Translations under genes and position numbers: made by a program
Notes under the pieces: model-generated
The model's database searches: none
What the model was told of the DNA's origin: nothing
What the model saw: only the letters and a program-made list of their open reading frames with translations
Part shown: positions 35,031 through 48,012 of the stretch, one piece after another
Numbering within the stretch: the first letter of the stretch is position 1
Layout of the letters: each line of letters opens with the position of its first letter
NCBI RefSeq assembly: GCF_013911755.1
Contig: NZ_JACESP010000017.1
Coordinates: 27,841 to 91,840 of the forward strand
DNA length: 64,000 bases
Direction: 5' to 3'
Source of the DNA: Sphingosinicella sp.
GTDB lineage: Bacteria > Pseudomonadota > Alphaproteobacteria > Sphingomonadales > Sphingomonadaceae

Positions 35031-35115
35031 GGAGGGGTGGCCGAGTGGTTAAAGGCAGCAGACTGTAAATCTGCCCGCATAGCGTACGCTGGTTCGAATC
35101 CAGCCCCCTCCACCA
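35031..35115 (+). tRNA. tRNA-Tyr (anticodon GTA)
   Basis: 85 bases with an encoded CCA. Acceptor stem GGAGGGG/CCCCTCC, anticodon loop CTGTAAA giving GTA, a long variable arm (type II), and T-arm GCTGG-TTCGAAT-CCAGC. It marks the left edge of the accessory gene cluster, but I found no repeated copy of its 3' end within the window. Confidence 0.97.
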
Positions 35116-35152
35116 TCACACCCTCCGGCGCACAAGAGGCATAGCCCGCCGC

Positions 35153-37780
35153 TCAGGGTAAATCGGCATGTTTCTTCCAGGCCTCCACGGCCTGTTGCCG
35201 GGTGTGGACATGCAGCTTGTGGTAGATTCGCTTCAGATGATGCCGGACCGTCTCATACGAAAGGTTGAGATGCCGGGCGGCGACCTTTGTGGGATGCCCG
35301 AGACACAGTTCGGCCATTACCTCCTGCTCGCGCGGGCTTAGGAGCCTAGCGACGCCGCGATCCGCGTCGTGGGCAATGTGCGCGGAAAAGTGGTGCAGGA
35401 TTGCGTCCCCCGCCCCCGACCGTTCATCCCGCGATATCTCTTGAAGAACAGCCTGAACGTCTTGATCTGCATCGAGGAAAAGACGCACTGCGCCGGTGCC
35501 CTCCACCTGCTTCATGGCTTGACGTATAGCAGTATCGGCCTTGCCGCGATGTCCGCCGGCCAACGCCGCAGCCGCTGCATCCAGAAGTCCACCGGCGCCC
35601 ATCAGAAGACGTCCGCTTTGCGCGGCACGAATGGCAAATTCGTGCGCGAGATTATAGGCGCGCTCGGCGTCGCCCGCATGCAGCCAATAGCGGGAAAACA
35701 GCCGTACCAGCGCTTCCGTCTCAAGCCAGGGACGGACAAACCATGTCCGGTGCTGATCAAGCACGGCATCAAGCTTCGCAGACCGAATCAGTTGTTCGCA
35801 TCCACTCCTGTCCCCCGCCGTCAGCCTCAGCTCGGCACCAACCGCCGGCGCGATGACCGACATATGCGGCAAGGCTTCTTCGAGCGCGTACTGATAATCA
35901 TCGTCGAGATCCGACAGCGCCTGCTCGATCTCGCCGCCAAGGAACAGGCACCGCACCCTCGTGCAGACGGCGTACACCTGCGTACTCAGCAGCGAATAGG
36001 CTATCTGCCTCGGCACGGCATCGAAATGCGCCAGCGCCACATCGAGCATGTTCTGCTCGAAAAAGCTCTGGCCGAGAATGGCGGTGCAATGCCGCCGCAT
36101 GAAGGTGTTGCGCATCTCTCCGGTGTCCGCGAGGCGTTCGAGAACGACGCGGGAGTAGTGCTCGGCATCGCGCGAATGGCCTTTGGTGATGGCGAGGAAA
36201 GATAGGTGATTGGTGATCCACACAGTGTTGGGCGCATAACGTTCGGTTTCGAACAGCGCCTGCAACTCCTGCGTCCGCCGTTCGGCGAGACTGACCGATC
36301 CATAGTCACATAGCGGAATCTGCTCTGCCGGCAGGCAGATACCAAGGTAACGCGGCTCTTCATATCGCAGCGCGAGGGATTTTTCCCGTAGCTTCGCGAT
36401 CTCTGCCCAGGGCGCGCTCAGCATGGCGTAACGTGTCTCGGAGCAATTGCGGATTGCCCTTATGAGATCCGTGGTGAACTGATACGTCTCGTCGCCGGAA
36501 TTCGCGTGCGTGTTACTGCAAAGATAGTCCAGCCGCTCGAAATCGCCCAACCAGTCCGAGGATATGCCCTCCATCGCTTGCTGTATCACCCGCAGCTGTC
36601 GCAGCTTGGGTCGGGCCGTCACGACGCTCGCCGGAAGCGTGGCGAGAAACGCTCCGGCAGCAGCGACGCCTTCGCTGATCACGAGAAGTGCGCCGCCTGC
36701 TTCCTCGAGAATGTCTACAGTCAGATCATTCTGGCCCGACAGACTCGCGTGGTGAACGGCCTTGTGCAGGTCGTTCAACGCGGCAAAGTGCTTCGCGGCC
36801 CTTCCGTGCAGCGCATTGGGCGCAGACGGCATTCTTACGGCAAGTTCCTGACGCAGAAAATCGCGAAGTAGAGGATGTAGTCGCAGGGTTAGTGGTTCTT
36901 CGGCAATCGTGGTGACGATCGGGCTGAGGTTGAGCGCCGCGCGCAGCAGCCTTTCCGAGGCGTCGCTTTGTGTGACGGCCCGGGAGGAGGCTACATCGAC
37001 ATCCGATAGGATCGAGATCTGCAGCAGAAACTCCTGCAACTCCTGCTCCTGCCGCGCCAGCACCTGCTCTGCGATGTAGTTGAAGATGCTGACCCGGTGC
37101 TGGCCCCTCGTGGGCGGAAATCCCGTCTTCTGCAGCGCTTGGCCTTCAAGACGCAGCAGTTGCAGGATGACCGGCCAGCCATCGCACTGTTCCAGCAGAT
37201 CGCCATAGTAATCCGCATCCCCCATGTCGGCCATGAGGCGCTTCGTTTCCGCCGGGTTGAACTGCAGCTCATTGGCCTTCACCAGTCGCGTTCGCGCGTC
37301 GACCAGCAGCTTGGAGAGGCTGATCTTCGGAAGTTCGCGGGTCGCCACGAACAGCTTGCAGTTCGAAGGCAAAATGCGAATGAAGAATTCGAGGAAGCTG
37401 TCCGTCTCGTCCGAACTCGCGCACTCATACTCATCGATGAATATCGAGACGGGGCCACATTCGGAAAGCGACGACGCGATATCGCTGAGGCCGAATTCCG
37501 GCATGGACGGAAACATGCCTGCCCGCTGGAAACTCGCCGCCAGATCGACGAGGAACGCCGCGGGCTGGACGTGATCGACCGTACAGTTGAGCCACGCGGA
37601 GCGGAAGCCCAGAAGCTCCAGCGCGTCCCTGATCTGCACGAGCAGCGTCGTCTTGCCGTATCCTGCTGGTGCCGTGATGATCGTGGAGCCTGCGGCCGCC
37701 GGTGCACCCCGCAGCGCGAGCTCGATCAGCCGCTCTCTTTCAACCGCATCCGAAGCAGTTCCGAGCGGCAGGAATTTCAT
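35153..37780 (-). CDS. Large ATP-binding LuxR-type (LAL/MalT-like) transcription regulator
   Basis: 875 residues. N-terminal STAND-type ATPase with Walker A (TAPAGYGKTTLL, residues ~38-50) and Walker B (VSIFIDEYE), a long helical repeat middle, and a C-terminal LuxR/GerE helix-turn-helix (LLSPREQEVMAELCLGHPTK ... SYETVRHHLKRIYHKLHVHTR). Such proteins activate catabolic genes when bound to ATP and an inducer. Its ribosome-binding site overlaps the stop of the lrp-type gene upstream, so the two regulators form an operon. The likely targets are the neighbouring catabolic units, which is inference from position. Confidence 0.9.
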   Translation of the reverse strand: MKFLPLGTASDAVERERLIELALRGAPAAAGSTIITAPAGYGKTTLLVQIRDALELLGFRSAWLNCTVDHVQPAAFLVDLAASFQRAGMFPSMPEFGLSDIASSLSECGPVSIFIDEYECASSDETDSFLEFFIRILPSNCKLFVATRELPKISLSKLLVDARTRLVKANELQFNPAETKRLMADMGDADYYGDLLEQCDGWPVILQLLRLEGQALQKTGFPPTRGQHRVSIFNYIAEQVLARQEQELQEFLLQISILSDVDVASSRAVTQSDASERLLRAALNLSPIVTTIAEEPLTLRLHPLLRDFLRQELAVRMPSAPNALHGRAAKHFAALNDLHKAVHHASLSGQNDLTVDILEEAGGALLVISEGVAAAGAFLATLPASVVTARPKLRQLRVIQQAMEGISSDWLGDFERLDYLCSNTHANSGDETYQFTTDLIRAIRNCSETRYAMLSAPWAEIAKLREKSLALRYEEPRYLGICLPAEQIPLCDYGSVSLAERRTQELQALFETERYAPNTVWITNHLSFLAITKGHSRDAEHYSRVVLERLADTGEMRNTFMRRHCTAILGQSFFEQNMLDVALAHFDAVPRQIAYSLLSTQVYAVCTRVRCLFLGGEIEQALSDLDDDYQYALEEALPHMSVIAPAVGAELRLTAGDRSGCEQLIRSAKLDAVLDQHRTWFVRPWLETEALVRLFSRYWLHAGDAERAYNLAHEFAIRAAQSGRLLMGAGGLLDAAAAALAGGHRGKADTAIRQAMKQVEGTGAVRLFLDADQDVQAVLQEISRDERSGAGDAILHHFSAHIAHDADRGVARLLSPREQEVMAELCLGHPTKVAARHLNLSYETVRHHLKRIYHKLHVHTRQQAVEAWKKHADLP

Positions 37781-37793
37781 GCAGCTGCGCTCC

Positions 37794-38273
37794 TCAGAAA
37801 AGATCCGATCGCGAAGCGGCCCGTTTGATCGGCCGCATCACGATGCTCGACGTGATGCTCCGCACGCTCGGCAGCTTCAGCAACGTATCCATTGTCAGCT
37901 GCGCCATGTCTGCCATGTCGCGGACCACCGCCCTGATCAGTATGTCGTGGTTTCCCGTCAGCGCAACGCATTCGACAATGCGGTCGTCGCGGGCGATCCT
38001 GTCGAAGAATATCCTGGCGTCGGTTTCGATGCGCTGATCGAGATCGATCATGATGTAGAGCGAAATACTCGGCCCGAGTGCCGCCGGATCGACGACGGCA
38101 ACATAGGCGCTGATGATCCCCGCCTCTTCGAGTGCGCGTGTGCGGCGCAGGCACGTGGACGGAGACATGCCGACGCGCGCAGCAAGGTCGATGTTGCTGA
38201 GCCGCGCATTCCGCTGCAGCTCCCGCAGAATTTTCCGGTCACCTGCATCGAGCGTTATGGTCATTTTCGTCAT
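37794..38273 (-). CDS. Lrp/AsnC-family transcription regulator
   Basis: 159 residues: N-terminal winged helix (LDAGDRKILRELQRNARLSN, then IDLAARVGMSPSTCLRRTRA) and a C-terminal RAM ligand-binding domain (DILIRAVVRDMADMAQ). Members usually sense amino acids or related small nitrogen compounds. An ATG at 38264 is an alternative start; neither has a clear ribosome-binding site. It is divergent from the P450 gene, with a 13-bp palindrome between them, and is cotranscribed with the LAL regulator. Confidence 0.93.
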   Translation of the reverse strand: MTKMTITLDAGDRKILRELQRNARLSNIDLAARVGMSPSTCLRRTRALEEAGIISAYVAVVDPAALGPSISLYIMIDLDQRIETDARIFFDRIARDDRIVECVALTGNHDILIRAVVRDMADMAQLTMDTLLKLPSVRSITSSIVMRPIKRAASRSDLF

Positions 38274-38299
38274 TTATGAGACTTATTTGATCCAAACCA

Positions 38300-38312
38300 T
38301 CCGAAATTCGGA
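38300..38312. promoter_or_regulatory. Palindrome between the lrp-type gene and the P450 gene
   Basis: TCCGAAATTCGGA is a perfect 13-base dyad about 27 bases from the regulator start. AT-centred dyads of this size suit an Lrp-family operator; assignment is by position only. Confidence 0.4.
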
Positions 38313-38395
38313 AAAATCATGGCATATCTGGCGAGACTCTTCAATCCATGCCTCCTAATCTCACGGAAACAACGGGATAAGGACCCCACGCCGCC

Positions 38396-39583
38396 ATGAC
38401 GCACGATCGAACCCCCTGCCTTGAGATCACGGCGGAAGCGTTGGATCGCGACCCATATCCAACCTTCCGGGCGCTGCAGTCGGGGTCGTCCGTGGGCTGG
38501 GTGCCGGATCTCGGCATGTGGCTCGTCGCCGGTTACCGGGACGTGGAGACCATACTTCGCAACACCGACGATTTCGTGACCGGAACGCCGGATTCGCTGA
38601 TTTTCGACACGTTCGGCGAACACATGCTGACTGCCGAAGGGGAGCAGCATGAACGATTCAAATCCCGGTTCCGCGGGGCGTTCAGCCCGGCTCGCATCCG
38701 TGCTTCCATGGAGGAGAGGACGGATGCGTGTTCGCGTAGGCTCATCGACGGCTTCGTGAACGACGGCAAAGCCGAGTTTCGTGCCGCCTACGCAAGCCGG
38801 CTGCCCGTGCTCTCGATCCTTTCGCTGTTCGACATCCCACTTGAGGAGGAAGCGAAACTGCGCCTCTGGTATGATGGCTTCGAACGGGCACTTTCGAATT
38901 TCGCGTGGCGCGAGGACGTTCGGGCGCGGGCGCAGGGTTACGTCGGCGCGTTCCATGCGCTCATCCGGCACCACATCGCGCGGGTGCGGGCAGCGCCCGA
39001 CGACAGCCTGCTCAGCCAGGTCGTCAACGACCCGAGCGACGACCGGCTGGATGACGCCGAGATTTGCAGGAACGCGTCCATCATCTTCTTCGGCGGTATC
39101 TCGACAGTGGAGGCCGTTGTCCTCAATTGCCTCTATGCCCTGTGCACGCATCCCGATGCGCTCGCCAGCGTGCGCCGAGACCCGGCCCTCGTCCCGCAGG
39201 CCATCGAGGAAACGCTGCGCTGGCTTTCGCCGGTGCAATCCGCCACGCGCCACGTCGTTCGGGATTTCACGCTCGGCGAAACCAATTTTCGCGCAGGCGA
39301 CATCGTCAACTGTATGCTCGGCGCGGCCAATCACGACCCGCGCGTTTTCGATGAGCCCGCCGCCTTCCGACTGGACCGGACGAACGTGCGGAAGCATCTG
39401 GGCTTCGCGCTCGGCCCGCATTTCTGCCTGGGATCGAATCTCGCGCGCCTCGAAGCCATCACCGCCATCCGGCATATCCTCGAACGCTGCCCGGATATGC
39501 GCCTTTCGGCCGATCACCCCGCGGAAATTCGCGGCTTCGAATTCCGGCAGCCGACGGCGCTGCATCTTGTATGGCGGGTATAG
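38396..39583 (+). CDS. Cytochrome P450
   Basis: Bacterial soluble class-I type P450 of 395 residues, without membrane anchor or reductase fusion. Haem-binding signature FALGPHFCLG at 337-346 with Cys344, ExxR as EETLRW, and I-helix FFGGISTVE, where the usual acid/Thr pair is Ser-Thr flanked by Gly. No ferredoxin or ferredoxin reductase gene is nearby, so electron partners must be encoded elsewhere. It is a single-gene unit, converging with the cyclodeaminase-like gene 18 bases downstream. The substrate is unknown; the context suggests oxidation of a nitrogenous compound. Confidence 0.92.
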   Translation: MTHDRTPCLEITAEALDRDPYPTFRALQSGSSVGWVPDLGMWLVAGYRDVETILRNTDDFVTGTPDSLIFDTFGEHMLTAEGEQHERFKSRFRGAFSPARIRASMEERTDACSRRLIDGFVNDGKAEFRAAYASRLPVLSILSLFDIPLEEEAKLRLWYDGFERALSNFAWREDVRARAQGYVGAFHALIRHHIARVRAAPDDSLLSQVVNDPSDDRLDDAEICRNASIIFFGGISTVEAVVLNCLYALCTHPDALASVRRDPALVPQAIEETLRWLSPVQSATRHVVRDFTLGETNFRAGDIVNCMLGAANHDPRVFDEPAAFRLDRTNVRKHLGFALGPHFCLGSNLARLEAITAIRHILERCPDMRLSADHPAEIRGFEFRQPTALHLVWRV

Positions 39584-39601
39584 GCGCCTTCGCATCAGCC
39601 T

Positions 39602-40591
39602 TCAGAGACGGACGCTTCGAAGCGCCGCCCCGCTCGACAGATCAACGAGAGTGCGTGCCGCCGCGAGATCCTGAACGATGTGGCCGAGCGAGCGGTACAG
39701 CGTGATATCGTCATCACATATTCTGCCTGCCGTGCGCCCCGAATAGACGTCGCCGATCTCGGCAACAATGTGGGCGTCCGTCACCACGCCGTTTTGGAGC
39801 AGCGAACGGAATTCGCCGGCTTCGGCGAAAACAGACGCGCGGCTATCGGCGATATAGCGCGCGCGGAGCACAAGATCGGCATCAATCTCCGCCGCATCGC
39901 TTCCAGCAAAGCCGACGACATTGATGTGGGTTCCGGGGGCGATCCAGCGACCGTAGAGGATGGGTTCGACCGCCGCTGTCGTCGTGCACACGATGTCGGC
40001 GTCGGAAACGGCATGTGCGACGTCTGTCGCAGCAGTGCACGGAACTGCGCACGCCGCCGCGATACGATCAGCAAAGCGCGCGCAGCGTTCCGGATCACGC
40101 CCCCACACGCGGACGCGCTCGATCGAACGCACGGTGAGGATCGCGCAGATATGCGTCTCGGCCTGCTCGCCGTATCCCAGCACTGCAAGCGTTCGGACAT
40201 CGGGCCGGGCGAGGGCATCGGTTGCGGCGGCGCTCGCCGAAGCCGTCCTGATCGCGGTGAGCGCCGCAGCGTCGATGACGCTGCGGAGGCTGCCATCCGC
40301 AGGATCGAACACCGCGACGAGGCCAAGGTGCGAAGGCTTGCCATGCCTGACGTTGCCGGGAAACAGGCTGATCAGCTTGGCGCCGAACATGTCGCCTTCG
40401 CCAAGGCTGCCCGCCATGGCGCCAAACATGTTGCCGCCCGCAAGATCCAGAAACGCCCGCGGGACACTCGGCGCACGTCCTTCTGAGAACGCCACCATGG
40501 CATCGCGCATCGCAGCGATACAGGCTTCGTACGAAAGATGTGCCCACACATCGCCCGCACCGAAAATGCGGACGTCCCGGCCCTCATGCAT
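39602..40591 (-). CDS. Ornithine cyclodeaminase / mu-crystallin family protein
   Basis: 329 residues from MHEGRDVRIFGAGDVW (40591). A Rossmann NAD(P)-binding motif (LAVLGYGEQAETH) and substrate-side residues (MAGSLGEGDMFGAKLISLFPGN) are present. The family includes ornithine cyclodeaminase, alanine dehydrogenase, and ketimine (delta1-pyrroline/piperideine carboxylate) reductases, so cyclic imine or amino-acid redox chemistry is the likely theme rather than ornithine specifically. It lies 84 bases downstream of the TonB receptor on the same strand, with a hairpin in the gap. Confidence 0.85.
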   Translation of the reverse strand: MHEGRDVRIFGAGDVWAHLSYEACIAAMRDAMVAFSEGRAPSVPRAFLDLAGGNMFGAMAGSLGEGDMFGAKLISLFPGNVRHGKPSHLGLVAVFDPADGSLRSVIDAAALTAIRTASASAAATDALARPDVRTLAVLGYGEQAETHICAILTVRSIERVRVWGRDPERCARFADRIAAACAVPCTAATDVAHAVSDADIVCTTTAAVEPILYGRWIAPGTHINVVGFAGSDAAEIDADLVLRARYIADSRASVFAEAGEFRSLLQNGVVTDAHIVAEIGDVYSGRTAGRICDDDITLYRSLGHIVQDLAAARTLVDLSSGAALRSVRL

Positions 40592-40626
40592 GGTCAAGGA
40601 ACCCTCCGCATCCGGTGGAAACGAAT

Positions 40627-40658
40627 GGTGCCTCCGCCACGCTTGCGGCGAAGGCACC
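40627..40658 (-). repeat. Hairpin between the TonB receptor and cyclodeaminase-like genes
   Basis: GGTGCCTCCGCC (40627-40638) and GGCGAAGGCACC (40647-40658) pair with a single mismatch. No T-run follows on the minus strand (ATTCGTTTCC), so it may be a partial terminator or an mRNA-stabilising structure. Confidence 0.5.
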
Positions 40659-40675
40659 ATGATCAGACCTGAAAA

Positions 40676-42757
40676 TCAGAACTTGTAGGAACCCTGAACA
40701 CCGAACTGCCGCTTCGGGCTCGGAATGCGCGAATGCAAGCCGTCTCCGAAGGAATTGGCGAGCGCCTGCGTCGGATAGCGTGCGTTCGTAAGGTTATCGA
40801 CGTAAGCACCGATCGAAAACCCGCCTCGTTCGACGAACAAACGGGCGTTGATGAGGTTCTTCGCGGGCGTCCGCAGCGTGTTGGCGGCATCCCACATGAT
40901 CGAGCCGCGCCGCACGAAGCTGCCGTTGAAGCGAACGTCGAATTCGTCCGCCAGCGGGATCACGTAATCCATGCTGAGGCTTGCCGTGTACGCGGGGCTC
41001 TGCGGAGCGCGGTTGTCCTTGTAAAGCGCGGGCGCGGCATCGCTGAACCGCTTGATCGTCGCATCCGAAAGGCCAAAGCCCGCGTTGATGGTGAGCTGCG
41101 ACGTCGGGCGGGCGGCCAGCTCAACTTCAAGGCCGGAAATATCCACCTTGCCGATGTTCACGACGTTCTGCGACGGCGGACTGACCGTGATGAAGAAGAA
41201 CTGCTGATTGTCGAACTTGATGTGGAATGCCGATGCCGACAATGTCAGGCGGCGGTCCAGGAAATCGCCCTTCATGCCGATTTCGAAGCTGTCCGACGTT
41301 TCCTTGCTGAACTGCCGATCTGCGCCAGCGGCAAAGAACGCGTTAAAGCCACCGGACCGGAAGCCGCGTCCGTAGCTCGCGAAGACGTTGAGATCGTCGG
41401 CGATCTTGTATTTCAGCTGCAGCTTGGGCTGAACGGCCTCGAACGTATCGCCCGCCTCCGAGGCTGCGCCGATCGCCGTATCCACGGACCGGCGCTTGTC
41501 GCGGTCGTAGCGCATACCAAGCGTCAGTTCGAGGTCATCGGAGACGTCGGCGCTCACCGAACCGAACGCCGCAATCGACTTGCTCGTGCCCGCATCGAAG
41601 CTCTGGATGGCGAAGGTGCCGTTCGATTGGCCCGTGCCATCGTCGAAGGGAATGAGCAGGAAGTTGTCGGTGTCGCGCTTCTGGTAATAGAGGCCGACAA
41701 GCCACCGCAGCCAGCCATCACCCTGCGAGGACAGCCGCAGCTCCTGCGTGAACGCCTTCACGGTCAGATCGAGATCCTGGAGCAGGAACGGTGTCGGCGA
41801 GAAATCCGCATCGCCAAACAGATGCGCGTCGCTGCGGCTGTAGCCGGTGATCCATGTGAGCATCGCGGCGCCGAAATCATAATCGGCCTTCAGCGAGAGG
41901 TCGTAGATCTCGCGCTTGTCGAACGTCAGGACATTGCGATTGATCAGCGACGTATCGTAATCGTCGAAATTGGCATTTCCGACGATCTCGAGCGATGGGG
42001 CGCCGGCGCGCTGATGCAAATAATTGCCCCTGAGGTTGATCTCCAGCCGGTCAGTCGGCGTGAAGATGAGGCCGGCCTTCACCAGGTAGTTCTCGTCGTA
42101 ATCCGCCTTGCGGTCACCATCGCGCGCGGTCTGATCGCGCAACTGCCCTTCGTAGTCGCGCATCGAAGCGGCGAGGCGGAACAGCAGCTTGTCCTTGACG
42201 AGCGGACCCGAGATGGCACCGCCGACGCGGATATCGTTACCGCTGGCGTAGGAAGCGCGGACCATGCCTTCGAGTTCGTTGGTCGGGCGCCGCGTCGTGA
42301 TATTGAGCGCGCCGCCGATGGCATTGCGGCCGTAGAGCGAGCCCTGCGGGCCGCGCAGCACCTCGATCTGCTCGATATCCAGCAGTTCCTGGTTGACGAA
42401 GGTGGGATGCGAGACCTGCACGCCGTCGATCACGACCGCGACCGGGGCCTCTCCCCCCTGCGCCGTCGGGATACCGCGGATCGTCATCTGCATTTCCGCC
42501 GGCCTGAAGGTCGGCGTGAAGAACATGTTGGGCGTGAGATTGGCGAAGTCCGTGACGTCGTTGATGCCGGCGTTCTCGATGGTCTGCGCCGTGAACACGG
42601 TGACGGCGTCGGGAACCTCGATCTGGCTTTCCGCGCGCTTGCGCGCCGTGATGACAATTTCGCTCTGCTCGGGCTCGGCAGCGACGGCCGGTGCGGCGGC
42701 GACAAGCAGGCCGGCCACCGAAACGGCAGCCAGAATCCGCGTTCGAACGGTATCCAT
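40676..42757 (-). CDS. TonB-dependent outer-membrane receptor
   Basis: 693 residues: signal peptide (LAAVSVAGLLVAAAPAVAAE), a plug domain beginning IVITARKRAESQIEVPDAVTVF, and a 22-strand barrel ending with a terminal aromatic residue (GSYKF). The plug sequence belongs to the large group of sphingomonad receptors used for organic substrates rather than siderophores. Of two adjacent ATGs (42760, 42757) the second is better spaced from GGGGG. It diverges from the hyuA-type gene across a 250-base region rich in dyads. Confidence 0.93.
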   Translation of the reverse strand: MDTVRTRILAAVSVAGLLVAAAPAVAAEPEQSEIVITARKRAESQIEVPDAVTVFTAQTIENAGINDVTDFANLTPNMFFTPTFRPAEMQMTIRGIPTAQGGEAPVAVVIDGVQVSHPTFVNQELLDIEQIEVLRGPQGSLYGRNAIGGALNITTRRPTNELEGMVRASYASGNDIRVGGAISGPLVKDKLLFRLAASMRDYEGQLRDQTARDGDRKADYDENYLVKAGLIFTPTDRLEINLRGNYLHQRAGAPSLEIVGNANFDDYDTSLINRNVLTFDKREIYDLSLKADYDFGAAMLTWITGYSRSDAHLFGDADFSPTPFLLQDLDLTVKAFTQELRLSSQGDGWLRWLVGLYYQKRDTDNFLLIPFDDGTGQSNGTFAIQSFDAGTSKSIAAFGSVSADVSDDLELTLGMRYDRDKRRSVDTAIGAASEAGDTFEAVQPKLQLKYKIADDLNVFASYGRGFRSGGFNAFFAAGADRQFSKETSDSFEIGMKGDFLDRRLTLSASAFHIKFDNQQFFFITVSPPSQNVVNIGKVDISGLEVELAARPTSQLTINAGFGLSDATIKRFSDAAPALYKDNRAPQSPAYTASLSMDYVIPLADEFDVRFNGSFVRRGSIMWDAANTLRTPAKNLINARLFVERGGFSIGAYVDNLTNARYPTQALANSFGDGLHSRIPSPKRQFGVQGSYKF

Positions 42758-42760
42758 CAT

Positions 42761-43010
42761 ATTCCCCCTTTTATGTGCAACCGATACTTGCGAACGAGTA
42801 TCCGCGAACAATAGTCGGGGCGATCGGCCGCCGGTCCAAGCCAAATGTTGGGTGATCCCCCATAGTCGAACCCCACGCCGGAACGGCTTTGGGTTATCCC
42901 CCATGAGCAACCTTGCAATGAGGCCCGCACCCCGCTTCCCTCGATGGACTGAGTTCATCGTTCGCAAGTCCGGCCGGGCCTTGCGAACACATTATCGAGA
43001 GCGGGAGCGC
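42761..43010. promoter_or_regulatory. Divergent control region between the TonB receptor and hyuA-type genes
   Basis: Contains three sets of repeats. (1) Direct repeats TTGGGTGATCCCCCAT (42848-42863) and TTGGGTTATCCCCCAT (42889-42904), offset by 41 bases, about four helical turns. (2) Dyad GATACT-TGCGAACG-AGTATC (42783-42802). (3) Perfect inverted repeat GTTCGCAAG (42960-42968) and CTTGCGAAC (42980-42988); a further CTTGCGAAC lies inside dyad 2 (42787-42795). These look like operators for the regulators of the cluster. No convincing -35/-10 pair was identified. Confidence 0.6.
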
Positions 43011-45059
43011 ATGACACAGGATCGCTACAGGGTCGCCGTGGACGTAGGCGGCACATTCATGGACTTCGTCTTGATGGACGAGGCTACCGGCGCTGCCCGC
43101 GTGGAAAAGATTCCCTCGATTCCGGACAGGCTGCACGAGCAGTTCCTCAAGGGCATCGAAAGCCTCGACGTCGAGATCGACAGCATCCAGCAAATCTTCC
43201 ACGGCATGACCGTCGGCGTGAATGCGCTGGTTCAGGAAAAGGGCGCGAAAGTCGGCCTGCTGACCACCAAAGGCTTCCGCGACGTTCTGGAGATGGGTCG
43301 CGGCGGCCGGAAGCCTGTTTACAACTTCCTGCACCAGTCTGCGCCGCCGCTCGTCGAACGCTTCCTTCGCCTTGAAATTCCAGAGCGCATGACCTTCGAC
43401 GGCGAGGTGCTGACGCCGATCGATCTTGAAGCGGTCGACACGCAGGTCGACCTGCTGCTGGCGCGCGGCGCGGAGGCCATCGCGATCTGCTTCCTGCACG
43501 CCTATGCCCAGCCCGCGCATGAAATTGCCGCGCGTCAGCGCATCCTCGCGCGCCACCCGCATCTGCCGATCTCCGTGTCGCACGAGATCGCATCCGAATG
43601 GCGCGAATATGAGCGGACGTCGACGACGGTGCTCAACGCCTTCATTCAGCCCACGGTGCAGACCTATCTCACCAATCTCGAAACGAAGCTGAAGGACGCG
43701 AATTACACGCGCTCGCTTGCCATCATGCAATCGAGCGGCGGGGTCGTGGATGCGAAGACGGCCGGACGGAAGCCGATCCGTACGCTGATGTCCGGCCCCG
43801 CGGGCGGCGTGATCGGCGCCAAGTTCCTCTGCGACCGCCTCGGCTACGCGAACGTCATCTGCACCGACGTCGGCGGCACCACCTATGATGTCGCGATCAT
43901 CGAGGAGGGGCGCGTCCTCGAACGCAGCCAGGCCGAGATCGCGCAGCGGCCGATCCTCGGTTCGCTGATCGACGTCATCTCGATCGGCGCGGGCGGCGGC
44001 TCCATCGCATGGCTCGACCACCGCGGCGGCCTGCAGGTCGGGCCGCAAAGCGCCGGCGCCTCGCCGGGGCCCGTCTGTTTCGGACGCGGCGGCACCGAGC
44101 CGACCGTCACCGACGCGCACCTGACGCTCGGCCGCCTCGATCCCGCCTATTTCCTCGGCGGCCGGATGCAGCTCGATACCGAAGGCGCGCGGGCGGCCAT
44201 CGAAAAGAAGATCGCCGCGCCGCTGGGGCTCGACCTTCAGTCGGCCGCGCAGGGCATCGTTTCAATCGCCGAAACGAACATGGCGAATGCCATTCGCAGC
44301 AAGACGGTCGAGCGCGGCCTCGATCCCCGCGAGTTCGTGCTGCTCGCCTACGGCGGCGGCGGCGGGCTGTTCGCCTGCTCGGTGGCGGAGGAGCTGGAGG
44401 TGCCCAAGGTGATCGTGCCGAATGCGCCGGCGAACTTCTCGGCGTGGGGCATCCTCACCACCGATTACATGGAGGACGAGGTCCGCACCAAGGTCATGCC
44501 GTTCGACGCCGCGCACATCGCCGGAGCGCTGGCGACGATGAACGAGCTGGAAACGCGGGCGGCGAACGGCATCGGCCAGTATGGCTTCGCCGCCGGCGAT
44601 ATCGAGCGCGTGAAGCGCTTCGACCTTCGGTTCGAGAATCAGGAATACACGATCACGATCGACCTGGAGGACGCATGGCGGGATGCCGCGTCCATTCTGG
44701 AAGGCGCGCGCCAGCGCTTCGTCGAATCGCATATCCGGCTCTATGGCCACGGCGAACCGGACGCACCGCTGGAGCTGGTCTCCATCCGCTGCCGCGCGAT
44801 CGGGCGTGTCCGCGCGCCGGAGATCGCCCCGATGCCCGAAAGGCCGCAGGGCGCGGCGATGCGGCAGCTGGATGTCTATTTCCCGCGCACCGGCAAAGCG
44901 GTGCCGACCGATGTGTTCGACCGAGAGACGCTCTCGGCGGGGCAGATCGTCACCGGCCCTGCGATCATCAACGAATGGACCATGACGACGATCGTTCCGC
45001 CCGGGTGGCAATCCACCTGCGACACCTTCGGCAATCTCGTTCTCGAACCCACTCTCTAA
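43011..45059 (+). CDS. Hydantoinase/oxoprolinase family subunit A (HyuA-like)
   Basis: ATP-dependent ring- or amide-opening enzyme subunit of 682 residues from MTQDRYRVAVDVGG. Both actin-like ATPase phosphate motifs are visible: VDVGGTFMDF near residue 10 and CTDVGGTTYDVAI near 288, plus SIGAGGGSIAW. Relatives include N-methylhydantoinase, 5-oxoprolinase, acetone/acetophenone carboxylase and caprolactamase. Subunit B follows after 17 bases, as in all two-subunit members. GGGAG three bases before the ATG decides the start; an upstream ATG at 42903 lies inside the operator region and is not used. Confidence 0.9.
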   Translation: MTQDRYRVAVDVGGTFMDFVLMDEATGAARVEKIPSIPDRLHEQFLKGIESLDVEIDSIQQIFHGMTVGVNALVQEKGAKVGLLTTKGFRDVLEMGRGGRKPVYNFLHQSAPPLVERFLRLEIPERMTFDGEVLTPIDLEAVDTQVDLLLARGAEAIAICFLHAYAQPAHEIAARQRILARHPHLPISVSHEIASEWREYERTSTTVLNAFIQPTVQTYLTNLETKLKDANYTRSLAIMQSSGGVVDAKTAGRKPIRTLMSGPAGGVIGAKFLCDRLGYANVICTDVGGTTYDVAIIEEGRVLERSQAEIAQRPILGSLIDVISIGAGGGSIAWLDHRGGLQVGPQSAGASPGPVCFGRGGTEPTVTDAHLTLGRLDPAYFLGGRMQLDTEGARAAIEKKIAAPLGLDLQSAAQGIVSIAETNMANAIRSKTVERGLDPREFVLLAYGGGGGLFACSVAEELEVPKVIVPNAPANFSAWGILTTDYMEDEVRTKVMPFDAAHIAGALATMNELETRAANGIGQYGFAAGDIERVKRFDLRFENQEYTITIDLEDAWRDAASILEGARQRFVESHIRLYGHGEPDAPLELVSIRCRAIGRVRAPEIAPMPERPQGAAMRQLDVYFPRTGKAVPTDVFDRETLSAGQIVTGPAIINEWTMTTIVPPGWQSTCDTFGNLVLEPTL

Positions 45060-45076
45060 AGGCGGGAAGACACACC

Positions 45077-46813
45077 ATGCGCAAAGTAGACGTCGTTCTG
45101 ACGGAGATCATCCGCAACCGCCTCGTCGCCGCCACCGAGGAAATGGCGAAGACCATGATCCGCACGGCCTTCAATCCGCTGCTCTATGAAGTCCAGGACT
45201 TCAGCGTCACCATCATGTCGGCGACCGGTGACATGTGGGCGGAAACGCCGGGCGTGATCGTGTTCAGCCAGGCCTTCCCGGAAGCCGTGCGCGCCGGAAT
45301 AGCGCGGTGGAAGGGCAATTTCGCGGAAGGCGATGTCCTTATCGTCAACGATCCGTTCGAAACCGGAACGCACATTTCCGATACCAACGTCTACATGCCG
45401 GTGTTCTTCGAAGGCGAACTCGTCGCCTTCTGCGGAACCGCCGCGCACTGGGCGGACGTCGGCGGCAAAAATCCCGGCGGCTGGTGCCCGGACACGACGG
45501 ACACGTTTCAGGAAGGCCTCTGCTTCCGGCACCAGAAGATCGTGGAACGCGGCGTCAAGAACCAGGGACTCTGGGATCTGATCGACTGCAATGTTCGCGT
45601 GCCGGAAATCGTGAAGGGCGACCTTGAGGCGCAGATCGCCTCGTGCCGGCAGGGCTGCGAGCGTATCCAGTCGCTGTGCGCCAAATACGGCACGAAGACG
45701 ATCCGCGAGGCGATGGACTATGTGATCGACCAGACCGACCGATCGATGCGCGCGACGATCGCGGCATTGCCGGACGGCGAATACGGCACCTCGATCCGTC
45801 TCGACAGCGACGGCGTGCAGGAAGACGGCGAATTCCTCGTCTGCCTGAAGGTCACGATCCAGGGCGACCGCGTGCACTTCTCGCTGAACGGTTCAAGCCC
45901 CACGGCGCGTGGGCCGATCAACCTTCCCGCGCCCTGCACCAAAGGCATCCTCGCATCGTCGCTGAAGGGCATCCTGCTGCCGTTCGATCCCTGCAACGCC
46001 GGCCACACCAAATGCCTGGATTTCGAGCTGCCGCCGGAATCGATCGTCAACCCGGTGTGGCCCGCGCCGACCGATTCTTACGGCTATGTCATCGAATGCC
46101 TGATGGACATGATGTTCCGGTGCTTCCTGAACATCGTGCCGGACAAGTGCCCGGCGGGCGGCTACCAGCTGACCGGCGCGTTCTTCTCGCGCAGCCAATC
46201 GCGCCACGGCAAGCCGTTCGTGATGATGGACCCGATGCACGGCGGCAACGGCGCGCTGATCGACCGAGACGGTGCGACCAACCAGCTGACCGGCAACGGC
46301 GACCTGCCCAATACGCCGATCGAGATCACCGAGACGCGTCATCCGTTCCGCGTCGAGCTGTTCGAGTTCGCACCCGAAGTCGCCGGCGTCGGCAAGTTCC
46401 GGGGTGGCATGGGCGTCCGCAAGGACTACCGGTGCCTCACCGACGGCGTCTACGCGTCCTTCGTCATCGAAAATACTGCGGACACCACGGCCGCGGGCTT
46501 CAAGGACGGCACGGACGGCGATCACGGCAGCCTCACCGTGATGCCGGTGGAGGGCGAACGCATTGTCTATAACAAGCGTGTCGGTTCCATCGGCCCGTTC
46601 GGCGAGGGCACGCTGTTCCGTGTCATCACCGGTGGCGGCGGAGCGTGGGGCAAGGCCAGCGAACGCGATCCCGAGCTTGTGCTCAGAGATGTGCGCAACG
46701 AATTCCTCACCGCCGAGGACGCCCGCACCCGTTACGGTGTCGTCGTCGAGGAACGCGGCGGAGCCTGGTCGCTCGACCTGCAGAAGACGCAGGAGTTGCG
46801 GGCCGCTTCATGA
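45077..46813 (+). CDS. Hydantoinase/oxoprolinase family subunit B (HyuB-like)
   Basis: 578 residues from MRKVDVVLTEIIRNRL. It carries the family's catalytic-subunit landmarks: DFSVTIMSATGDMWAETPG, NDPFETGTHISDTNVYMPVF, GGWCPDTTDTFQEGLCF and a C-terminal GGMGVRKDYRCLTDG. It partners with the HyuA-like subunit to hydrolyse or carboxylate a cyclic amide, imide or ketone at the cost of ATP. The stop overlaps the start of the FAD oxidoreductase gene by four bases. Confidence 0.9.
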   Translation: MRKVDVVLTEIIRNRLVAATEEMAKTMIRTAFNPLLYEVQDFSVTIMSATGDMWAETPGVIVFSQAFPEAVRAGIARWKGNFAEGDVLIVNDPFETGTHISDTNVYMPVFFEGELVAFCGTAAHWADVGGKNPGGWCPDTTDTFQEGLCFRHQKIVERGVKNQGLWDLIDCNVRVPEIVKGDLEAQIASCRQGCERIQSLCAKYGTKTIREAMDYVIDQTDRSMRATIAALPDGEYGTSIRLDSDGVQEDGEFLVCLKVTIQGDRVHFSLNGSSPTARGPINLPAPCTKGILASSLKGILLPFDPCNAGHTKCLDFELPPESIVNPVWPAPTDSYGYVIECLMDMMFRCFLNIVPDKCPAGGYQLTGAFFSRSQSRHGKPFVMMDPMHGGNGALIDRDGATNQLTGNGDLPNTPIEITETRHPFRVELFEFAPEVAGVGKFRGGMGVRKDYRCLTDGVYASFVIENTADTTAAGFKDGTDGDHGSLTVMPVEGERIVYNKRVGSIGPFGEGTLFRVITGGGGAWGKASERDPELVLRDVRNEFLTAEDARTRYGVVVEERGGAWSLDLQKTQELRAAS

Positions 46814-47961
46814 CCACGGTTCCCGAGGCAGTATTCGACATTGCCGTGATCGGCGCCGGCATGGCCGGCGCCTCAATCGCAAGCGCACTGTCCTCCACCC
46901 ACAGGGTCTTGCTCCTCGAGCAGGAAGATCAACCGGGCTATCACGCGACGGGGCGATCCGCTGCGGTCTTCACGGCCATCTACGGCAATGAAACCGTTCG
47001 CGCCCTGTCGCGCGCCAGCCGGGAATTTCTCGCCGCGCCGCCCGAGGGCTTCGCCGACCACGCGCTGACTTCACCGCTCGGCAACATGTTTGTCGCCCGC
47101 GCGGACCAGCTCGGCCGCCTGGAGGCTTTCTTCGCGCGGCCGGATATCGCGCCCCTTACCACGTGGCTGGATGCTTCCGCCACGCGGCGCCTCTGCCCGC
47201 TCCTCGCCGAGCCGTATGTTGCGGCTTCGGTTTATGAACCCGGCGCGCTCGCGATCGATGTCGACGCCCTGCACCAGGGTTATCTCCGTGCATTCCGGCG
47301 GAACGGCGGCGCTCTGGTGACGCGGTCCGGGCTCGAAGGTCTCGACCACGACGAAGGCCGCTGGATACTGCGCACGGCAACGGGCGCTTTCGCCAGCGCG
47401 GTCGTGGTGAACGCAGCCGGCGCATGGGCGGACAATGTCGCCGCCATGGCCGGATCGAGAACAGGCTACGTAAAGCCTTTTCGGCGCACCGCCGTCCTAG
47501 TGGATCCGCCCGCGGACATGGAGATCGCGCGCTGGCCGTTCGTGATGGATATCGACGAAGACTTCTACTTCAAGCCGGACGCGGGCGCGCTTCTGCTTTC
47601 GCCCGCGGACGAAACGGCCTGCGAGCCATGCGACGCGCAGCCGGACGAATGGGACATCGCCGTCGCGGTCGACAGGGTCTGCACGGCAACGACGCTTCAG
47701 GTTCGGCGTATCCGCCACAGCTGGGCCGGTCTCCGCACGTTCTCGCGGGACCGGTTGCCGATCGCCGGGCCGGACCTGGATCTGCCGGGCTTTTACTGGC
47801 TGGCCGGCCAGGGCGGTTACGGCATCCAGACGGCCCCTGCGCTCGCCCAACTGCTTGCGGCGCGCATTCGGGACGAGGACTGCCCGGAGGCGCTGCGCGC
47901 CGAAGGCATTGCCTACGCGGACATGGGCACTGAACGCTTTCATTTGCAGCCCGCGGCCTAA
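46810..47961 (+). CDS. FAD-dependent oxidoreductase, DAO/glycine oxidase-like
   Basis: 383 residues. N-terminal FAD motif FDIAVIGAGMAGASIASAL, followed by YHATGRSAAVF, and a C-terminal FAD-closing segment LAGQGGYGIQTAPALAQLLA. This is the D-amino-acid oxidase/glycine-sarcosine oxidase superfamily, which dehydrogenates secondary or primary amines of amino acids. Third gene of the hyuA-hyuB operon, coupled by ATGA. It probably acts on the ring-opened amino acid or amine; inference from order. Confidence 0.88.
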   Translation: MTTVPEAVFDIAVIGAGMAGASIASALSSTHRVLLLEQEDQPGYHATGRSAAVFTAIYGNETVRALSRASREFLAAPPEGFADHALTSPLGNMFVARADQLGRLEAFFARPDIAPLTTWLDASATRRLCPLLAEPYVAASVYEPGALAIDVDALHQGYLRAFRRNGGALVTRSGLEGLDHDEGRWILRTATGAFASAVVVNAAGAWADNVAAMAGSRTGYVKPFRRTAVLVDPPADMEIARWPFVMDIDEDFYFKPDAGALLLSPADETACEPCDAQPDEWDIAVAVDRVCTATTLQVRRIRHSWAGLRTFSRDRLPIAGPDLDLPGFYWLAGQGGYGIQTAPALAQLLAARIRDEDCPEALRAEGIAYADMGTERFHLQPAA

Positions 47962-48012
47962 GCAAGTCGGCAGCAACAGCGGCTCTTTCGTATCGCGGAG
48001 AACCGGGCAGCC

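Follow-up and report, generated by a model that had tools for sequence, protein, structure and literature searches.

The block of genes at positions 35153-47961 of the 64,000-nucleotide stretch of Sphingosinicella sp. DNA analysed here (contig NZ_JACESP010000017.1 of assembly GCF_013911755.1; hereafter the window) raises the question of whether its eight genes form one pathway and, if not, which of them belong together and on what compound they act. The block sits on contig C9 of a 3.63 Mb assembly and encodes a LAL-type LuxR regulator, an Lrp/AsnC regulator, a cytochrome P450, a protein of the ornithine cyclodeaminase (OCD)/mu-crystallin family, a TonB-dependent receptor, the HyuA and HyuB subunits of an ATP-dependent amidohydrolase and a DauA-like FAD enzyme. 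An earlier account (the sequence-only reading) had joined all eight in a single pathway. All the families that it named were found with Pfam and NCBIfam, and the coordinates of the open reading frames (ORFs) bore out the divergent layout, with lrp-LAL and receptor-OCD units on the minus strand and P450 and hyuA-hyuB-dauA units on the plus strand. The reading preferred here is narrower: in a LAL-controlled uptake module, HyuAB would open a cyclic amide, perhaps derived from a peptide, and the DauA/OCD pair would invert the D-amino acid that is released. The chances of this proposal being right or wrong are judged to be about even.

The composition of the site was compared across related genomes. 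The full gene order is intact in Sphingosinicella microcystinivorans DSM 19791 (L037; L084 of G004) and recurs in a second genome (L036 of G003), where the LAL gene is cut by the contig end; in the stretches compared as L036 and L037, the locus ends cut the LAL gene. Since the order is kept in these loci, the block is no chance cluster. The lrp gene (37794-38273, minus strand, Pfam) and the P450 gene (38396-39583, plus strand, Pfam) are, however, separable neighbours. In G001, a genome of the same genus that is 99% complete, the site consists of spoU, tRNA-Tyr, lrp (88%), P450 (77%) and yccV and is devoid of LAL, OCD, receptor, HyuAB and FAD enzyme; blastn found no counterpart of window positions 35120-37820 and 39576-48006 in the G001 stretch. 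In G002 (L083/L142), lrp and P450 are again present and the module is not: a phage-type integrase, an IS21-type pair and a primase-like gene lie between tRNA-Tyr and lrp, and an acyl-CoA-dehydrogenase-like gene, a second P450, a TonB receptor, one unscanned ORF and a MarR gene lie between P450 and yccV. Matches to the P450 at E ≤1e-70 were found in 6 of 148 genomes (G000, the genome of the window, to G004, and G061), with the relative in G061 on a contig other than that of the block; G097 and G103 had no match at E 1e-70. No P450 relative was found in G005 (78% complete), whose contig stops at yccV. Because lrp and P450 occur without the other genes in G001 and beside different ones in G002, they can be separated from the rest of the block. 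Hence, the single eight-gene pathway was rejected on the basis of these two sites and of the separate contig in G061. The block itself, its gene families and their conserved synteny stood up to comparison; the inclusion of Lrp and P450 did not, as these two lack the co-conservation whose absence the sequence-only reading itself had named as refuting it. The locus illustrates that contiguous genes can mix separable parts.

The remaining genes behave differently. HyuB orthologues with at least 63% identity occur in G000, G003, G004, G061, G097 and G103 among the 148 relatives, and the other listed matches have at most 35%. LAL relatives with at least 44% identity occur in the identical six genomes (in G003 as a piece at the contig end); G144 has one match of 27%. 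The receptor adjoins HyuAB/LAL in all six, with an identity of 96-97% in L036/L037, 77-79% in G061 and 58-59% in G097/G103. LAL, receptor and HyuAB therefore hold together, and the earlier proposal that receptor, ATP-dependent amidohydrolase and amino-acid enzymes form one set agrees with the conserved synteny. The six genomes belong to three genera and are not six independent events. The OCD and FAD genes were both in the block in four of the six and both not seen there in two. At E ≤1e-130, matches were found in 3 of 396 members of an even sample of the order and in 1 of 398 of the phylum, the latter being the window's own genome, so the module is rare. HyuB-family genes as such are common (34 of 148 relatives at E 1e-60; the genome of the window alone has five PF02538 matches). 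Among the papers listed by literature searches, judged by titles and abstract openings, none was described as treating this gene set.

HyuA (43011-45059, plus strand), the ATP-binding subunit, and HyuB (45077-46813, plus strand), the metal-site subunit, were identified with Pfam, NCBIfam and PDB comparisons. Against solved structures, HyuA scored 474.4 bits with N-methylhydantoinase, 399.1 with caprolactamase, 338.3 with acetophenone carboxylase and 263.9 with acetone carboxylase; the corresponding values for HyuB were 240, 187.7, 91.9 and 53.9. The hydantoinase and the caprolactamase thus score higher with both subunits, and the grouping with acetone carboxylase that had been named as a danger to the pathway was not seen. 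The residues expected of the ATP-dependent lactamase (hydantoinase/oxoprolinase) family are present, namely the ATP motifs of HyuA and the Asp-His-Asp-His metal site of HyuB: D41, H99, D102 and H124 of HyuB are kept in all six orthologues, and HyuA keeps the first Asp of both phosphate motifs and the GxxPGP motif. The first ATP motif of HyuA reads DVGGTFMD, in which a Thr of DxGGTxTD is replaced by Met, as in all five rows other than G097; the G097 row is without this motif since its ORF start was called late, and the DNA just upstream encodes it. It was reported that mutation of these phosphate-motif Asp and metal residues abolishes or nearly abolishes caprolactamase activity and that Tyr136 of CapB, near the metal, was suggested to act as acid/base (PMC8453981). 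The counterpart of this Tyr is Trp in all six HyuB orthologues. The best NCBIfam model for HyuA is caprolactamase alpha, with 528.4 bits against a cut-off of 1000, and HyuB reached 235.9 against a cut-off of 1000 for its caprolactamase equivalog. The CapAB caprolactamase of Pseudomonas jessenii and the N-methylhydantoinase of PDB 7hk5 resemble the pair in HyuA/HyuB architecture, phosphate-motif Asp, GxxPGP and metal residues, whereas CapAB differs in the Tyr136 and first-motif Thr positions, in the low equivalog scores of the block's HyuAB and in the linkage of the latter to receptor, LAL and D-amino-acid genes. By these sequence features, HyuAB is predicted to be an ATP-dependent cyclic-amide hydrolase with a substrate other than caprolactam. 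Hydantoin is less likely because ring-opening would presumably leave a blocked amine and no N-carbamoyl amidohydrolase was recognised in the ORFs scanned at about 29-54 kb, the rest of the window and genome not having been searched for one.

One passage of a report states that only four oxoprolinases have both a sequence and a confirmed activity and that many genes of oxoprolinase type may encode lactamases or cyclic dipeptide hydrolases (PMC6061476); another source describes the degradation of cyclic dipeptides as little known (PMC3852281). Few HyuA/HyuB proteins have a tested substrate; in this module, one such pair is accompanied by a probable regulator, a receptor and a pair of D-amino-acid enzymes for the later steps.

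The FAD enzyme is encoded at 46810-47961 on the plus strand, and its gene shares 4 bp with hyuB. It had been described as an amine or amino-acid oxidoreductase; PDB scores and residues refine this to the DauA-like D-amino-acid dehydrogenase family. Its strong solved relatives are DauA entries only (3nyc and 6p9d, with 303.6 and 301.8 bits; the next had 44.3), and the kinship is full-length, with 303 bits over residues 10-374. When the numbering of PaDADH was placed on chain 3nyc_A (chain number minus 6), all seven named residues landed on the right letter. Thr50 and Gln336, which we take to be further active-site positions, are both kept in the window enzyme. The carboxylate-binding R222 and R305 correspond to R226 and R309 of the window enzyme and are kept in every row covering them, which, along with the full-length kinship, marks it as a DauA-type enzyme; E246, Y249 and Y53 are kept as well, with Asp at the place of E246 in G004. 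Residue roles were taken from a study of PaDADH, in which E87 contacts the guanidinium group (PMC11193025). E87 and H48 are replaced by Asn and Val in the window enzyme, and no aligned row has Glu or His there; a strict D-arginine enzyme was therefore rejected. As no row has Glu at the E87 position, its replacement is a trait of the whole set of relatives and not of the block alone. In the DauA tree, the block copies form a clade of their own, and the nearest enzyme by path is that of a Phenylobacterium locus (L038).

The OCD/mu-crystallin-family protein (39602-40591, minus strand; a longer start at 40660 is possible) matched PF02423 with 227.1 bits and has the Arg45, Lys72 and Arg115 of the family, which are present in 26, 27 and 27 of 27 rows, respectively. 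Its best solved relatives are pyrroline-2-carboxylate reductase (PDB 6t3e) and then mu-crystallins, so that the earlier description as an OCD- or ketimine-reductase-like enzyme was right as to family and can be narrowed toward the reductase. The catalytic Asp of true ornithine cyclodeaminase is, we assume, D228 after a VGG motif. At the place tentatively judged equivalent, the window has Ala and none of 27 rows has Asp. A reductase or dehydrogenase role, probably that of an imine reductase, is favoured over cyclodeamination. A DauA-like FAD enzyme together with a reductase-like OCD protein points to a D-amino-acid product. In Pseudomonas, it was reported that DauA makes an imine or keto acid that DauB turns into L-arginine (PMC5619798). 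The window enzyme keeps R222, R305, E246, Y249 and Y53 of this DauA, but the block departs from the Pseudomonas aeruginosa system in the Asn and Val at E87 and H48 and in the addition of HyuAB, receptor and LAL. The likeness extends to the pairing of an FAD D-amino-acid dehydrogenase with an OCD-family protein, as DauB presumably is.

Taken together, the module would comprise the LAL, OCD, TonB receptor, HyuA, HyuB and DauA-like genes, arranged around a tRNA-Tyr / lrp-P450 / yccV site that is able to exist alone. In the proposed mechanism, the receptor (40676-42760, minus strand, Pfam), the first gene of the receptor-OCD unit, would import a scarce or bulky amide compound, as the presence of a TonB receptor suggests. 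In the cytoplasm, HyuA would use ATP to activate a cyclic amide, either the compound or a fragment of it, and the ring would be opened at the metal site of HyuB. The product would contain or yield a D-amino acid with a side chain that is not that of arginine and is probably nonpolar. The DauA-like enzyme would oxidise this D-amino acid to the imino acid; the imine would then be reduced (or the keto acid aminated) by the OCD-family protein to give the L-amino acid, a net D-to-L inversion. The LAL protein (35153-37780, minus strand; MalT-like ATPase, TPR and GerE by Pfam and NCBIfam), the probable cognate regulator, would sense an intermediate and turn on the divergent receptor-OCD and hyuAB-dauA units via paired GGGGGAT repeats. 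The favoured substrate is a peptide-derived cyclic amide containing a D-residue, since D-aminopeptidase, prolidase-like and M81 genes around relatives suggest peptides with D-residues; simple lactams are possible. A type strain in this genus, S. microcystinivorans DSM 19791, is available in culture, so the substrate of the module can be sought.

The divergent promoter region between receptor and hyuA (42761-43010) has two 16-bp TTGGGTnATCCCCCAT repeats, at 42848-42863 and 42889-42904, 41 bp apart. The pair recurs at equal spacing in G004 and, apart from one base of the second copy, in G003. The G061 gap has a 14-bp core in common with it, reached by none of 2000 order-1 Markov samples, which could also be due to common descent of the gaps; the G103 gap shares only 10 bp, and there is no such repeat in the lrp-P450 gap. 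GGGGGAT, which we take to be MalT-box-like, would fit a LAL regulator. The paired repeats are hence candidate LAL operators.

Several results weigh against the module as proposed. The link between LAL and the repeats is suggested by position and conservation alone, and the repeats by themselves prove little: with up to three mismatches allowed, the two exact copies were the only matches of the pattern in the window (0.84 expected), and two or more turned up in 18 of 100 shuffles. The HyuAB, LAL and receptor genes of G097 and G103 are accompanied by no OCD or DauA relative within the 18-kb stretches read, which means that the core can do without D-amino-acid handling. At E 1e-40, 132 of 148 relatives have a DauA-family match, and contig C45 of the window's genome carries a second DauA-like and a second OCD-family gene, so the presence of these families is not diagnostic in itself. 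The DauA tree does not place the sister of the block clade, and the likeness of the OCD protein to DauB is one of presumed family. The Sphingosinicella block showed no recognisable gene for an inner-membrane transporter. Finally, the GC content (LAL 60.9%, lrp-P450 61.6%, OCD-to-DauA 64.3%, flanks 64.4 and 67.9%) neither sets the cargo apart from lrp-P450 nor settles whether the cargo was gained or lost.

Among the other explanations, one is that the receptor-HyuAB-LAL core acts on a simple achiral lactam and that OCD and DauA are passengers serving D-amino acids in general. The state of G097 and G103 fits this, as does the caprolactamase alpha model being the best for HyuA. It is nevertheless unlikely: dauA overlaps hyuB in the window, OCD and DauA are present or not seen as a pair in the module genomes, the pair is found independently with M81 genes in seven loci (see below), and a TonB receptor would not be expected for a small lactam. 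The pathway of the sequence-only reading, in which the P450 would oxidise a lactam, imide or hydantoin ring, HyuAB would open it, the OCD and DAO-type enzymes would process the product and Lrp would sense it, has in its favour the contiguity of the eight genes in the window and G004 (in G003 up to the contig end) and a best NCBIfam model for the P450 from a subfamily associated with cyclodipeptide synthases (161.9 against a cut-off of 500). The occurrence of lrp and P450 in G001 and G002 and the distribution of the P450 in G061, G097 and G103 make it very doubtful. A role of HyuAB as a ketone carboxylase like those for acetone or acetophenone is highly improbable; the superfamily is shared and HyuA reaches 338.3 bits with an acetophenone carboxylase subunit, but this identity was rejected on the higher hydantoinase and caprolactamase scores, and the scanned ORFs nearby included none recognisable as a further carboxylase subunit.

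A more specific form of the module was also considered, in which HyuAB opens cyclic peptides with D-residues (diketopiperazines or peptide-terminal lactams) in place of an MlrC-type M81 enzyme and feeds the DauA/OCD inversion. This is rather doubtful; if true, it would amount to a route from uptake to L-amino acid for D-configured peptide natural products. The comparison covered 29 DauA-relative loci, three with hyuAB (L036, L037, L061) and 26 without; none was dropped and some were short. Nine of the 26 hold an MlrC-like M81 relative, seven of these nine also an OCD relative, and none of the 26 has an OCD relative without M81. As L044-L048, which make up five of the seven, are closely related, the seven represent about two independent cases. 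In the mlr pathway, MlrB is a serine hydrolase, MlrC an M81 peptidase and MlrD an MFS transporter (PMC12474180, Table 1). The likeness to this microcystin-degrading system is that it, too, belongs to sphingomonads and that OCD/DauA relatives in Caulobacteraceae and the Pararhodobacter group adjoin MlrC-like M81; the difference is that HyuAB occupies the place of M81 in the other loci and that the window's genome has no match to PF07171 (M81). Such matches were found in three of nine genomes searched (G003, G004, G061), away from the block. A link between the block and mlr-type or M81 genes in S. microcystinivorans was considered, but in G004 the PF07171 matches, one at C1:793262 and the others on C2, C5 and C9, are not beside the block, which is at about C1:454000-467000.

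In the seven loci (L038, L039, L044-L048), DauA-like, OCD and M81 genes stand in one locus, with an MFS transporter in L038 and a TRAP transporter in L044; L038 holds two beta-lactamase-fold hydrolases, M81, MFS, OCD and DauA. These loci are a candidate catabolic cluster of their own, for D-peptides or D-amino-acid amides.

The tRNA-Tyr gene (35031-35115, plus strand, ARAGORN) is the left border of the variable site and ends 37 bp from the LAL stop codon; lrp and LAL are 13 bp apart. With its lrp-P450 centre and yccV on the other side, the site (window 35031-35115 and 39584-48006) resembles an exchange site in the genus, being empty in G001 (L082), occupied by the integrase, IS21 and the other receptor/P450 set in G002 and by the HyuAB module in G000, G003 and G004. 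Attachment repeats from the tRNA end were considered; the longest match listed in the block was 9 bp. Between window positions 39602-47961 and L036/L037, identity is uneven, with 96-98% for receptor and HyuAB and 80-90% for OCD, P450 and DauA.

Outside Sphingosinicella, the surroundings of the module vary. No lrp or P450 was seen on the module contig of G061, where hyuB is followed by a prolidase-like amidohydrolase (best solved relatives 3feq, with 339.7 bits, and 3mkv), an MFS protein and part of a DauA gene, truncated at the contig end. Past LAL, the same contig (L070 596-8714) encodes an M55 D-aminopeptidase, a receptor, a beta-lactamase-fold hydrolase and an S15 peptidase, and further genes look, by eye only, like a dipeptide ABC transporter. 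The ORF adjoining hyuAB is an MFS gene in G103, its counterpart in G097 being unscanned. A link to lasso peptides through an Asn-synthase-like gene of G103 was rejected, as that gene scored 17.8 against a lasso-cyclase cut-off of 525 and the genes beyond it resemble, as judged by eye only, queC/queE and further housekeeping genes. In this genome (L066), the Asn-synthase-like gene lies upstream of the receptor, and sarcosine-oxidase-type genes and purU stand beside hyuAB.

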